From contig OX578138.1 in NCBI GenBank assembly GCA_951213105.1, positions 93,650,914 to 93,714,913 of the forward strand: a DNA stretch of 64,000 bases, written 5' to 3'. Made by a program: the position numbers and the translations under genes. A model generated the notes under the pieces. The model did not search any database. It was not told where the DNA came from and saw only the letters and a program-made list of their open reading frames with translations. The number at the start of each line of letters is the position of its first letter. The first letter of the stretch is position 1. This document shows, one piece after another, positions 9,178 through 57,259 of this stretch. The stretch comes from Amaurobius ferox (taxonomy: Eukaryota > Arthropoda > Arachnida > Araneae > Amaurobiidae).

Positions 9178-9354
9178 TTTGTGTGCGTGTGTCTGTGTGT
9201 TTGCATAAGTGCATGTGTGTGCATGAGTGCTTGTGTGTGTACGTGTGTGCGTATGTGTTATGTGCGTGTTACGTGCGTGTGTGTGTGTATGTGTTATGTG
9301 CATGCGTGTTTGTGTGTATGTGTTTTGTGCGCGCGCGTGTGTGTGTGTGTGTGG
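9178..9354. repeat. Impure (GT)n microsatellite inside B3
   Basis: Long GT/GTGC/TATGTGTT-rich tract at the position where all family B copies carry a shorter GT run. It creates spurious Cys/Val-rich and Thr/His-rich frames on both strands. Confidence 0.9.
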
Positions 9355-17714: not shown

Positions 17715-17793
17715 TTCTCCGGCCGTCCAAACAGTTACCTTACACACTTTTCTGGTAGGTCGGGCGGTCTGGGTCTCAACAACCCTGCTGTTA
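17715..17793 (+). mobile_element. 5'-truncated SINE tail (family S2)
   Basis: Matches the last ~80 bp of the SINEs at 22338 and 45483: GGCCGTCCAAACAGTTACC, GGTAGGTCGG.CGGTCTGGG, TCTCAACAAC. There is no head or body, as expected for an abortive retrotransposition. Confidence 0.8.
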
Positions 17794-18960: not shown

Positions 18961-19073
18961 TATATAACATTTTTTCGGTTAGTAAATGAGTTGGATTTTA
19001 AATCTTACGTCTTTATATGCTTGCCTTGACCGCTAAGGCTCCACTGAGTTAATCCCGGATTTCTGAGTTGTTG

Positions 19074-19454
19074 TTGTTGAGACCCAGACCGTCCGACCTA
19101 CCAAAAAGGTGTAAGGTAAATGTTTGGACAGCCGGGAGGTGCCACCCAATTTAGACCGGAACCCAGTGGGGGAGGCATCCACAGGGACCGTACCCCCCTT
19201 CCCCTACCACCAACCTCTCGGAAGGACTTACGGACCCACATGTTTAACGTGATCGTACTCCGCATGAACACGGCGGCAGTTGTGGCAGCGTGCGAATCTA
19301 GCGCGCAAACCACCGGGGTACCGCGCCCGAAATATGCCAATAGCACCCGGTGTTCCCAGGTGGTCATCCACCCAAGTACTAACGGCGCCCGATGATGCTT
19401 GACTTCGGTGATCTAACGAGAACCGCTGTTTTCAGCACGGTACGGCCGTTGGCT
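19074..19454 (-). mobile_element. Composite 5S rRNA-headed SINE, full length
   Basis: On the minus strand, a 5S rRNA-like head (19453 down to 19336) is followed by a short A-box-like remnant (GCGCGGTACCCCGGTGG). Next comes a body with ACTGCCGCCGTGTTCATG and GTGGGTCCGTAAGTCC, then a tail GGTCGGACGGTCTGGGTCTC and (CAA)n. It is flanked by CGGATTTCTGAGTTGTTG at 19056-19073 and 19455-19472, a perfect 18-bp duplication that fixes both ends. Compared with the SINE at 45483, it lacks the B-box-bearing stretch. SINEs of this kind are transcribed by Pol III and moved by LINE enzymes. Confidence 0.9.
19336..19453 (-). pseudogene. 5S rRNA-derived SINE head
   Basis: The 118 nt read GCCAACGGCCGTACC..., then AGATCACCGAAGTCAAGCA, GTTAGTACTTGGGTGGATG, ACCACCTGGGAACACC and GGTGCTATTGGC, which is 5S rRNA from end to end. 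It is an internal part of a SINE with target duplications, not a member of a 5S gene array. The internal control region is largely preserved, so it may act as a type 1 Pol III promoter. Confidence 0.9.
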
Positions 19455-19559
19455 CGGATTTCTGAGTTGTTGAAGACCCAGACCATCCGACTCGTCCGAG
19501 ATTTCTGAGTTGTTGAAGACCCAGACCGTCCGACTCGTCAGAGATTTCTGAGTTGTGAC
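19455..19559. repeat. Short tandem repeat, ~43-bp unit x 2.4
   Basis: Units at 19455-19496, 19497-19539 and a partial one at 19540-19559. Each carries GATTTCTGAGTTGTTGAAG followed by ACCCAGACCRTCCGACTCGTC. The first half equals the SINE target site. The second half recurs inside the LTR at 52687-52713. Confidence 0.8.
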
Positions 19560-19900: not shown

Positions 19901-20390
19901 GGTGGTATCACGTCTACTTCAATATATAAGCAATAAAATTAAAGAGACATATCATAAAAATGTCATTTAATCAAATAAAACCATCCTATAAGACGTACAA
20001 ATGTTAAAAGGCCAGAGCGCTTTCGGGTATCACTATATCCTTCATCAGTGGCTATATAAAATTTGTAGTGGAAACAAGCTTATATGTAGACCAGATCGAC
20101 AGACAAATTTGCATAAATCAGCTACAGAATAATTATATTATAATTATTTAGGAATAATGATAATATTATTGTTATTCCGTAGCTGATTTATGCGAATTTG
20201 TCTGCGGATCTTGTCTACATATGAGCTTGTTTCCAAGGTGATTTTTCATGTAGACACTGATGAAGGATGTAGTGATACCCGAAACCGCTCTGCCCTTTTA
20301 ACATTTACACGTCTTATAGGATGGTTTTATTTGATTAAATAACCTTTTTATATATGATATTTGTCTTTAATTTTATTGCTTATAATTGGA
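19901..20390. mobile_element. Fold-back element, inverted arms of ~210 bp (family D)
   Basis: The left arm 19926-20132 and right arm 20172-20383 are imperfect reverse complements (for example AATCAAATAAAACCATCCTA, AAATGTTAAAAGG.CAGAGCG, TTCGGGTATCACTA.ATCC, ACAAATT.GCATAAATCAGC). A ~40-bp A+T-rich loop lies between them. The left arm with upstream AAGGTGGTATCACGTC recurs at 35955-36530. This is a MITE-like hairpin; no target duplication was identified. Confidence 0.8.
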
Positions 20391-22184: not shown

Positions 22185-22337
22185 AAAAGAAAAATCTTTA
22201 AATTGAAAAATACAAGTTAATATTTGTCATTATTTTATTTTTTTCTGTCAATATAAAATTTACCTTAGAAAAAAAAGCAAAAGGAAAATATTAATTTTTC
22301 TTTGTGTAATTCCGCGTATCAACACATACCCCCTGAG

Positions 22338-22720
22338 AGCCAACGGCCCTATTGTGCTGATAACACCAGTTCTTGTTAAATCACCGAAGTCAAGCAGAAA
22401 CGGTCGCGGTTAGTACTTGGGTGGGTGACCACCTGGGAACACCGCGTGCTGTTGGCACATTTCGAGCGCGATAGCCCGGTAGTTTGGGCTCTGGATTTGC
22501 ACACTACCACAACTGCCGCCGTGTTCATACGGAGTACGATCACGTTAAGCATGTGGGTCCGTAAGTCCTTCCGAGAAGTTGGTGGTAGGGGAAGGAGGGT
22601 ACGGTCCCTGTGGGTGCCTCCCCCACTGGGTTCCGGTCTAAATTGGATGCCACTTCTCGGCCGTCCAAACAGTTACCTTACACCTTTCTAGTAGGTCGGA
22701 CGGTCTGGGTCTCAACAACT
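22338..22720 (+). mobile_element. Composite 5S rRNA-headed SINE, full length
   Basis: A 5S-like head (22339-22456) is followed by a degenerate A-box-like strip (GAGCGCGATAGCCCGGTAG) and the shared body and tail (GTACGATCACGTTAAGCATG, GGTTCCGGTCTAAATTGG, GGTCGGACGGTCTGGGTC, TCAACAAC). Flanks TACCCCCTGAG (22327-22337) and TACCCCTGAG (22721-22730) are a target duplication with one C lost. The B-box line of the tRNA-headed relative is absent, as in the copy at 19074. Confidence 0.9.
22339..22456 (+). pseudogene. 5S rRNA-derived SINE head
   Basis: GCCAACGGCCCTATTG..., AATCACCGAAGTCAAGCA, GGTTAGTACTTGGGTGGGTG, ACCACCTGGGAACACCGCG, TGCTGTTGGC: recognisable 5S rRNA with changes mainly in the first 60 nt. 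The box C region is close to intact. It belongs to the SINE and is not a 5S gene. Confidence 0.9.
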
Positions 22721-22888
22721 TACCCCTGAGGTACGTATATCTCATATTAGAAATCAGTGATCTATACTAACATCATAGTTTCTATAATTATACTATTTTT
22801 CCAAAGCTAGGAATGCTATAATACTTTTAAATTTCGAATAAGCTTCAGTTCTAATGACGGTAATTACTAAATATTATATTTCGTTTTA

Positions 22889-28920: not shown

Positions 28921-30126
28921 ATGTATATGTATGCAAAATGACTGGGAAAATGTTGTGTAGCGGGAGAGGAGTAAAGTTGTCCTCATCCCCGCGGATAAGA
29001 GGATTGACATGAGGGTGGTGAATGCAGAATGATTTTTATTCGAAAGGGCGTGTCTCTGTTGAAAGCTGCATATTAAAGTCATCGTATAGGGAAAAATCTA
29101 AAAAAAAAGTTTGTTTGTTATTCGTTTTAATTGCGGGTCGCATACGAATATATCTCAAGCATGTAGCAGTGATTTTTATCGCATCGAAATGGCTAAAATA
29201 TAGTCTTTTTCGAATAAATTTTACTGTCACGTAAGAAACTTTCCTTCCGTGTGTTTAGAATTTAAAACTTTTGCGTATCAAAAAATAATTAATATTTCTG
29301 TGTTTTTCTAGGTGCTTTTTAAAATATTAAACTGTTATTCCCGGTAAAAGTCGCTTCTATTTTACAGAAACGATTATAAAGCACTTAAATGGCTTATTTT
29401 ATTATTTTGAAAAATGAAGTTATTGAATCATTCAAACTATTTTACTTATACTGTTATTTCCGGCCACGAAACCAGCTGCTCATACGCTAGGGTGAGTCGC
29501 TGGCCTGGGTCTTCCACTTATACTGTTATTCAAATTACTGAAATAAGAAACATTAATAAAATTTAAGAATATTTTTGTAGCCAGTAACTCAAAAAATTTT
29601 TGAGATTTTTATCGCACGAAATATGTTTCAATGGTTCAATTAAAAAAATAGTTGCTCAAAAGGATATCAAAATTTTCAAAGTTAAAATGACTGTTCGGAA
29701 AATAATCAACTTTTGATTTTTAACGTAATTTCTCTCTGAACATCATATTTATTCTCACATTTTTAATGATCCGTAAGACCCTACTGATTAAATATTACGC
29801 GTATAATTATCATCTAAAAAATTAATTTTAAATGTAATTTTATTTAAAACATGTTTTATCATAGCTAAATGACGGTTTTTCGAATTCTAAATTTTGTTAC
29901 TTCTGTAGCACGTTCCGAACACGTAAGGAATGAAATATGTCTGTTCGTGTCTGTGTGCATTTCGAAGGTCGGTAATATAACAGTAGTGTCAATGCATGTA
30001 CCGTAACTATCATATTCTGAAAGAATATGAAAAATATAAATATAATATTTTGTTATTTGCATAACAAGAGTTGGCGTTATATGAAAATTAAAATTTCGAC
30101 ATTATACATTATCATATTCTGACTGT
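28921..30126. other. Unassigned stretch
   Basis: A+T-rich DNA. Overlapping opposite-strand frames at 29022-29234 show no recognisable protein. Confidence 0.3.
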
Positions 30127-45467: not shown

Positions 45468-45482
45468 ACAAAATCATTACAT

Positions 45483-45774
45483 GGGGGCGCGGTAGCCCAT
45501 TGGTTAACGCGCTGGAGTTGCACTCGGTAGGCCCGGGTTCGATTCCAGCCACTGCCAAAACTGCCGCCGTGTTCATGAGGAGTACGATCACGTTAAACAT
45601 GTGGGTCCGAAAGTCCCTCCGAGAGGTTGGTGGTAGGGGAAGGAGGGTACGGTCCCTGTGGATGCCTCCCCCACTGGGTTCCGGTCTAAATTGGGTGGCA
45701 CTTCCCGACCGTCCAAACAGTTACCTTACACCTTTCTGGTAGGTCGGACGGTCTGGGTTCCAACAACATCAACA
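45483..45774 (+). mobile_element. tRNA-headed SINE, family S2, full length
   Basis: The head GGCGCGGTAGCCCATTGGTT with AACGCGCTGG (A box) and GGCCCGGGTTCGATTCC (B box) is a clear tRNA-derived Pol III promoter. The body and tail (CTGCCGCCGTGTTCATGAGG, GGTTCCGGTCTAAATTGGG, GGTCGGACGGTCTGGGTTCC, (CAA)n) are the same as in the 5S-headed SINEs. Flanks ACAAAATCATTACAT at 45468-45482 and 45775-45789 are a perfect 15-bp duplication. The 115-codon frame across it is not a gene. Confidence 0.95.
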
Positions 45775-45805
45775 ACAAAATCATTACATCATAACAATCA
45801 AAAAG

Positions 45806-52249: not shown

Positions 52250-53324
52250 TGTGGGACGAAGAAGTTTAATTATATGTTACACTTTTAATTATTAAATTCA
52301 TTATTTTTAATCACATTAACATTGCCGTAAATTCATATTGTGGAATTAACATTAAAACGTACATTGCTCGTTGTTGTGCCGCAATAAACCCTCCAATTAT
52401 TTTTATCTTTTGTGTAAGTCCTGAAAGAAATATTAATTAATATAAAAAGATTAGACCATTTAAACTTAATAATATCATTTATTAACAACGTCAGTTAATC
52501 AATAACATCAATTTTCATTAATATCAGTTTTTATTTAATTATTTTAGCGAGGGGACATATGCGACCAGAATTACTAGTTTTACGATGGTATCTAGGACCT
52601 GTTATAATGAGCACATACCTTCCAATTTAATCTTGGGCTTATCATCTCTCCAAGGCTTGCGCCAGTCTTGCCACAACTCTGGGGTGTTAAAGACCCAGAC
52701 CGTCCGACTCGTCCTGAGGACTTGAGTATCTATTTGGACGGCCGGACAACTCTGGGGTGTGAAAGCCCCAGGCCGTCCGGCTCGTCCAGAGGATAACTCT
52801 GGGGTGTGTGACTCCTACTCGTACTATAATGCACTTGCACATAGATTACCTCTACGGGACACTCAACAACTACTCGTACTTTAAGTCAAAATTCGTGATT
52901 ATTTTCTTTTCATGTCTGCTCTCCATTTCTGCTCCTCGTTGTCTTTCGTATGCTACTGCACTCTCATGTCGTCTGTATCTGAAACTCGTGTATTTCGTCC
53001 ACAACTCTGGGGTGTGTGGCTCCGAACTCTGATTTATTTCCTCTCATCCAAGCTGTGGTTCCTTCGGCGGGGGGGGGTAGCTCCGCCCTTCTTCCTCTTG
53101 GCGCTCATTGGTTCTTCTCAACCCAATGGCATCATTTCACATATATAGCAAGGCCCCTCTCAGCCCCTCTGGTCTGGCACACCTAAATTTATAGTATTAT
53201 GACCGTAAAGTTCAAGTCCTCATAAACCCCGGCGCCAGCCAGACTATAGCTTTGTTAGCCGTTCTGGGCACCATAAATAATGCAAATAAAAATGTCTCAT
53301 GTGAGAACATATTCTGGTCTCACA
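52250..53324 (-). mobile_element. LTR2 (3' LTR of the gag element)
   Basis: 1,075 bp, TGTGAGACCAGAATATG (53324 downwards) to TTCGTCCCACA (52250). On the minus strand CATAATACTATAAATTTAGG (about 53202-53183) is a TATA candidate. CAATGAGCGCC/GAACCAAT lies at 53116-53099. A minisatellite of CAACTCTGGGGTGTG with ACCCAGACCGTCC words occupies 52670-52820. It is preceded on the minus strand by the purine tract CCGTGGGGAGATA. Confidence 0.8.
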
Positions 53325-56095: not shown

Positions 56096-57259
56096 TGTGG
56101 GACGAAAAAGTTTAATGATAAGTTACACTGTTAATTATTAGATTCATTATTTTTAATCACATTAACATTGTCGTAAATTCATATAGTGGAATTAACATTA
56201 AAGCGTACATTGCTCGTTGTTGTGCCGCAATGAACCCTCTAATTATTTTTATCTTTTGTGAAGGCCTGAAAGAAATATTAATTAATATAAAAATATTAGA
56301 CCATTTAAACTTAAATAATATCATTTACTAAGAACGTCAATTTATCAATAACATCAATTTTCATTAATATCAATTTTCATTTTATTATTTTAGCGAGGGG
56401 ACATATGCGAACAGAATTATTAGTTTTACGAAGGTGTCTAGGACCTGTTATAATGAGCACATACCTTCCAGTTTAATCTTGGGCTTATCATCTCTCCAAG
56501 GCTTGCATCAGTCTTGCCACAACTCTGGGGTGTTGAGGACCCAGACCACACAGCCAACCCTAAGGCTTATGGCAATCAAACGTGTGACCGGACACAACTC
56601 TGGGGTGTGTGGCCACTACAGAGTTGTGCTGGCCACACGTTTGATTGCCACAACTCTGGGGTGTGAAAGCCCCATGCCGTCCGGCTCGTCCAGAGGACTT
56701 AGAGCAACAAAATGGACGACCGGACAACTCTGGGGTGTGTGGCTCCTACTCGTACTATAATACACTTGCACATAGATTACCTCTACGGGACACTCAACAA
56801 CTACTCGTACTTTAAGTCAAAATTCGTGAATATTTTCTTTTCATGTCTGACCTCCATTTCTGCTCCTCGTTGTCTTTCGTATGCTACTGCACTCTCATTT
56901 TGTCTATATCTGAAACTCGTGTATTTCGTCCACAACTCCGGAGTGTGTGGTTTCGAACTCTGATTTCTTTCCCCTCATCCAAGCTGAGGTTCCTTCGCCG
57001 GGGGGGGGGGGGTAGCTGCGCCTTCTTCCCCTTGGCGCTCATTGGTTCTTCTCAACCCAATGGCATCATTTCACATATATAGCAAGGTCCCCTCTCAGCC
57101 CCTCTGGTCTGGCACACCTAAATTTATAGTATTATAACCTTAAAGTTCAAGTCATCATAAACCCCGGCGCCAGGCAAACTATAGCTTTGTTAGCCGTTCT
57201 GGGCACCATGAATAATACAAATAAAAATGTCTCATGTGAGAACATATTCTGGTCTCACA
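56096..57259 (-). mobile_element. LTR3 (5' LTR of the gag element)
   Basis: 1,164 bp, TGTGAGACCAGAATATG (57259 downwards) to TTTCGTCCCACA (56096). It is longer than LTR2 because its minisatellite (about 56515-56750) has more CAACTCTGGGGTGTG units and two GGCCAC/TTTGATTGCC inserts. Its outer end is followed by ATAAG. Confidence 0.8.

Follow-up and report, generated by a model that had tools for sequence, protein, structure and literature searches.

A 5S rRNA-headed SINE family with a B-box-less tRNA head in the spider Amaurobius ferox

The spider genome analysed here carries a 5S rRNA-headed SINE that is a real retrotransposed family, with thousands of copies. Its copies have a composite head, in which a 5S rRNA-derived part is joined to the 5′ part of a tRNA head at a fixed junction that lacks the B box. 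They are inserted with target-site duplications and have a tail in common with a tRNA-headed sister family, and a second junction of a different make also occurs. The explanation that we consider highly probable is a LINE-mobilised SINE with a composite head, whose type 1 start in the 5S part would let chimeras without a B box breed true. The family was recognised in a stretch of 64,000 nt (hereafter the window) and followed through the 3.56 Gb, 276-contig genome.

Results

Composition of the 5S-headed copies

The first 5S-headed copy of the window, on the forward strand, begins with a 5S rRNA-derived head at 22339–22457, the region of a type 1 Pol III promoter, which matches the Rfam 5S_rRNA model (RF00001) over model positions 1–120 with 78.6 bits (gathering score 38). 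The 6-nt linker CATTTC (22458–22463), which may be a remnant of the 5S 3′ oligo-T trailer, joins this head to a 38-nt strip at 22464–22501, identified by alignment to the tRNA-headed family as the 5′ part of the tRNA head with its A box. The site of the missing 27 nt, including the B box, lies at 22501–22502. The body common to the tRNA-headed family (22511–22656, by alignment) and the 3′ tail hairpin, which runs into a short CAAC tail (22657–22717), complete the element. The preliminary description had placed it at 22338–22720; the end is nearer 22719, and the target-site duplication CCCCTGAG lies outside it, at 22330–22337 and 22723–22730.

The second copy is on the reverse strand. Its 5S rRNA-derived head (19335–19453) matches RF00001 over the same model positions 1–120, read from 19453 to 19335, with 81.8 bits (gathering score 38); its A-box strip (19291–19328) is followed directly by the body and tail (19073–19290) with the B-box strip absent, and the duplication CAACAACTCAGAAATCCG lies on both sides of the inserted element. 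Directly upstream of its 5S head are two truncated tail-hairpin insertions, also on the reverse strand (19457–19556), each with identical target sequence after it. Full-length RF00001 matches of 78.6 to 104 bits were found in the four 5S-headed copies scanned. The 5S-like heads first noted in the copies at 22338 and 19074 are thus complete. The body and tail were likewise correctly traced to the tRNA-headed SINE at 45483, with identities of 92.7% over 218 nt for the first copy (22502–22719) and 94.1% over 222 nt for the second (19288–19067).

The tRNA-headed sister family

The tRNA-headed reference form occupies 45483–45775 on the forward strand, next to its target-site duplication ACAAAATCATTACAT at 45468–45482. 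The 27-nt strip that is absent from the 5S-headed family lies at 45523–45549 and contains the B box, GGTTCGATTCC, at 45536–45546. When consensus sequences were built from 42 5S-headed and 8 tRNA-headed copies, a single 27-nt gap separated them, corresponding to the loss of CTCGGTAGGCCCGGGTTCGATTCCAGC, B box included, from the 5S-headed form, as the preliminary description had proposed.

Substitutions between the two consensuses are unevenly placed, with 3 of 209 differing sites in the body and tail against 4 of 38 in the A-box strip (Fisher p 0.012). With its greater divergence, the strip is unlikely to derive from today's main tRNA-headed form by a single copying step; the differences are more simply explained if the fusion involved an older tRNA head. 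Mean non-CpG divergence from the consensus was 2.6% for the tRNA-headed copies and 2.3% for the 5S-headed copies, a value that may be too low, since most of these were best matches; such low divergence suggests recent activity of the 5S-headed family.

Regularly spaced samples amounting to 240 kb (20 + 4 stretches of 10 kb each) held six near-complete tRNA-headed copies and two 5S-headed copies, and Rfam models run on the first 200 kb returned the matches of those two copies and no other 5S. ARAGORN found no tRNA gene in the 64,000-nt window, and Rfam gave two tRNA matches elsewhere in it, one slightly above and one below the gathering score.

A B-less junction throughout the family

A genome search with the 383-nt copy returned, besides the query, 39 full-length matches at 92–93% and one of 33 nt; 40 of 8,070 candidates were scored, so that these are best matches and biased toward the query copy. 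Together with the two window copies and one from the regularly spaced samples (L026), the 39 make up the 42 copies that were read. All 42 are continuous and have the identical B-less junction, which we call the type 1 junction (27 nt missing). Target-site duplications of at least 8 nt flank 36 of the 42, compared with 2.5% when flanks were shuffled between loci, and 6 of the 8 tRNA-headed copies (shuffled control, 1.9%). Two of the copies, L040 and L047, have flanks in common and are probably a single duplicated insertion.

These properties place the family among known classes. The 382-nt consensus has a 5S, hence Pol III-type, head and a tail common to the tRNA-headed family and to hairpin-only insertions, and its insertions lie between target-site duplications, as in SINEs. 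The 5S rRNA-derived head is at the 5′ end in the four copies scanned, as in SINE3, and is joined to parts of a tRNA-headed SINE, as in 5S/tRNA chimeric SINEs. The A and B boxes that mark the head of a tRNA-headed SINE (SINE2) do not occur together, the B box being absent from the head in 42 of 42 5S-headed copies read.

The 42 copies entered the set through a single continuous match to a query that itself lacks the B box, a selection that disfavours B-retaining copies, so that this set alone could not reveal them; counts of the spacing between two anchors can, for copies in which the anchors are unmutated. Two exact anchors, one at the end of the 5S part and one where the body starts, lay 48–62 nt apart, a range that includes the B-less spacing of 54 nt, at 9,298 places in the genome (reversed-pattern control, 0). 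Among the matches listed (100 of the 9,298, in contig order), all span 75–79 nt, and the 82 given with letters read as the type 1 junction. A spacing of 63–92 nt was found at 58 places (control, 0). The B-less spacing thus accounts for 9,298 of 9,356 exact-anchor places, a count that omits copies with mutated anchors, truncated copies and the L025 type described below, which differs in the 5S anchor. Eight of the 58 longer-spaced places span 103–107 nt, where a strip kept in place predicts 105 nt; judged by length alone, the strip could therefore be retained in at most 8 of 9,356. The junction is accordingly a trait of the family, and the many B-retaining 5S-headed copies that would have counted against the initial reading did not appear among these exact-anchor places of the genome.

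A further pattern, the 5S end followed by N60-88 and GGGTTCGATTC, matched four places in the genome. Its spacing starts 3 nt beyond an in-place B box, which would sit at 57 nt, so the pattern is no test of in-place B boxes. Three of the four matches have the B-less junction first and then more sequence where the pattern demands GGGTTCGATTC. The fourth (G000 C23:103230742-103230834) has a 5S-like 3′ end followed by different, possibly tRNA-like sequence, and is maybe another 5S fusion.

A second junction

One of the sampled regions contains a 5S-headed copy, L025 (7637–7121, reverse strand; RF00001, 104 bits), that is not among the 42 continuous copies because a later 132-nt insertion split it. 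At its junction GTTTGCGCGC abuts GATTCTCGCCGCTGCC; the preceding stretch is missing, and with it the GGTTC half of the B box, but the 3′ part of the T arm, GATTCTCGCC, which the type 1 junction lacks, is kept. This L025-like arrangement is termed the type 2 junction. Its break points differ from those of type 1, and half or more of the B box is gone. With up to 2 mismatches allowed, its 26 nt were found at 1,430 places in the genome (control, 0), and the matches listed (100 of 1,430) are all exact; L025 is the one place at which a 5S head is known. A private deletion in L025 is ruled out by this recurrence. The precise loss of the B box, as originally described, therefore holds for the fixed type 1 junction but is not the sole form of the loss, since the type 2 junction cuts the B box differently.

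The A box of L025 has AGTGG, as in older tRNA-headed copies, and its linker contains TTTT. AGTGG also occurs in some type 1 copies, such as the one at C1:16470080, and so does not separate the types. In its 5S part, L025 has two minor letters that recur among the 42 type 1 copies, in 13 and in 9 of them.

At L025:7637-6812 (reverse strand), the split 5S-headed copy and a tRNA-headed copy stand in tandem with three copies of the target sequence ACATATATACATCC. Three type 1 junctions with identical letters are spaced 4,418 nt apart at G000 C1:1688882, 1693300 and 1697718, and three type 2 junctions are about 3,800 nt apart at C12:84177511, 84181315 and 84185123; these triplets are probably tandem arrays of larger units.

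The tail hairpin and hairpin-only insertions

Covariation in the tail hairpin was assessed on 21 stand-alone units with five measures, two of which gave no signal. Cells changed on both sides numbered 26, against 11.1 in shuffles, and the covariation score was 0.319 against 0.201 (each reached in 0 of 500 shuffles); the values drop when the hairpin is slid. The double-changed pairs (5 against 3.6; 69 of 500 shuffles) and the further pair types (19 against 17.6; 76 of 500) were not unusual. Single-sequence folding z-scores of ten hairpins were modest, from −0.95 to −2.63. The hairpin fits a presumed recognition by a LINE reverse transcriptase. A hammerhead-like interpretation of it was also weighed and dropped.

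The hairpin also occurs by itself, in insertions of about 60 nt of the form CCGGCCGTCC...GGACGGTCTGGGTCTTCAACA, many of which have the same target sequence on both sides. One with the SINE-type loop lies at 17719–17781 (forward strand). Others in the window are at 29460–29517 (forward strand) and at 52685–52745, 52758–52794, 56531–56591, 56662–56723 and the already mentioned 19457–19556 (reverse strand), and those in the sampled stretches are at L018:1775-1981, L022:3364-3495 and L026:9654-9786. They often begin precisely at the base of the hairpin, others being truncated, and a second stem type among them, CCGGCCACAC...GTGTGGTCTGG, shows compensatory changes. In 264 kb, a search with a hairpin model gave 34 hairpins, a number that includes SINE tails. 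These insertions look like minimal LINE-mobilised retroposons.

Differing hairpin and SINE insertions are in places arrayed with identical target sequence between them (L018:1775-1981, L022:3364-3495, L026:9204-9786 and 19457–19556 of the window), as though new insertions reused the target next to a tail already in place. A hairpin lies within 30 nt upstream or downstream of 12 of the 42 5S-headed copies and of 1 of the 8 tRNA-headed copies, where it is the tail of a neighbouring SINE. The window also contains, at 20069–20234, a long inverted repeat that several RNA-family hairpin models matched below their gathering scores; it is perhaps the remnant of a palindromic transposon.

Discussion

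TFIIIC binds type 2 promoters, with their A and B boxes, which set the start a short way upstream of the A box; TFIIIA serves type 1 promoters. On this background, the origin of the family can be proposed as follows. A tRNA-headed SINE would have gained a 5S part at its 5′ end, probably when the reverse transcriptase jumped template from the SINE RNA to a 5S transcript, and RNA would be made by initiation of type 1, dependent on TFIIIA, in the 5S head. In chimeras that still had the B box, Pol III would often begin transcription at the tRNA part, giving tRNA-headed daughters that had lost the 5S head. Deletion of the B box would remove the start in the tRNA part, and only B-less chimeras would breed true. 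A LINE recognising the 3′ hairpin may reverse-transcribe both families. The order in this scheme, with fusion preceding B-box loss, is suggested mainly by the T-arm letters GATTCTCGCC kept in L025; none of the copies read is 5S-headed with a complete tRNA head.

It is quite possible that the absence of the B box has no promoter meaning at all, the box having been lost once, by accident, at the founding template switch, and the B-less state being inherited from one founder ever since. A single founder would give the uniformity of the type 1 junction, which is present in each of the 42 copies read and, judged by length, at each of the 100 listed places out of 9,298; the two minor letters of the L025 5S part that recur in 13 and 9 of the type 1 copies also fit, as if L025 had arisen within type 1. 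Yet the type 2 junction, with break points of its own, likewise lacks half or more of the B box, and deriving L025 from type 1 would need several changes within about 10 nt. These same differing break points favour a convergent loss, in which two 5S-headed subfamilies would have shed the B box independently, a downstream B box redirecting Pol III and so stripping the 5S head from daughters. We regard this as conceivable, if somewhat doubtful. The T-arm letters retained in L025 and absent from type 1, its AGTGG like that of older tRNA-headed copies, and the near-lack of places of B-retaining length agree with it; against it, the sole type 2 head that was read has the two minor letters also seen in part of type 1, AGTGG is found in some type 1 copies too, and a complete ancestor with 5S and a tRNA head with A and B boxes was not found.

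A chance joining of 5S pseudogenes with SINE pieces, or an artefact of assembly, has next to no probability. The junction spacing is the same at 9,298 places, the copies have locus-specific flanks, and 36 of the 42 read have target-site duplications; a common junction at different insertion sites refutes both, and with them the thought that the heads were joined separately at each locus.

A further-reaching reading starts from one 5S fusion, after which the B box was shed separately in two 5S-headed subfamilies, since a type 2 promoter downstream of a type 1 promoter would capture the start and block inheritance of the composite head. We think it rather unlikely. If true, 5S-headed SINEs would propagate themselves only by deleting the B box, and, were the losses independent, the genome would offer a natural experiment, run in replicate, on how Pol III promoters are switched.

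It depends on the head of a SINE whether a copy, once inserted, can be transcribed anew. Here, type 1 and type 2 Pol III promoters precede the same body and tail in sister families of one genome, which allows the two promoters to be compared directly. Thousands of copies with one trimmed junction are a natural case of a mobile element that has, as we infer, switched its system of transcription start. If B-box loss were required for the 5S head to persist, this would give a testable rule for the origin of composite SINEs.

Composite SINEs of 5S and tRNA origin were correctly said in the preliminary description to be known in vertebrates, but they are not confined to them, as moths have them too (PMC3272025). 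The literature listings searched, mainly of open-access papers, showed no 5S-headed SINE from spiders or any other arachnids, and a half-deleted tRNA head with two B-removing junctions was not described in the literature passages compared. In the passages available on Helicoverpa armigera, HaSE3 is 5S-headed, has its body and tail in common with the tRNA-headed HaSE1, and is termed a 5S/tRNA-SINE chimera; found with the 246-nt 3′ region of HaSE1, it is depicted as 5S joined to this region (PMC3272025). This pairing of a 5S-headed and a tRNA-headed element with common body and tail resembles the spider families, but those passages make no mention of a retained A-box strip or of a B-box deletion, both of which are present here (PMC3272025). 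According to the parts of the respective reports consulted, PxSE4 and PxSE5 of Plutella are 5S-derived (PMC8010984), and SINE3 is recorded for vertebrates and some insects (PMC7245038) and for further moths (PMC10886601). AmnSINE1 of vertebrates is there given a 5S rRNA-derived promoter, then a tRNA-derived region, a body and a tail (PMC3234267), the same order as in the spider element; the body of AmnSINE1, however, is a Deu domain. Like the SINE3 class as a whole, the spider family has an internal promoter of 5S origin, with boxes A, IE and C, but here the 5S part sits before a truncated tRNA head. Since 5S/tRNA chimeras are known in vertebrates and moths, the spider family belongs to a kind of element that is known already.
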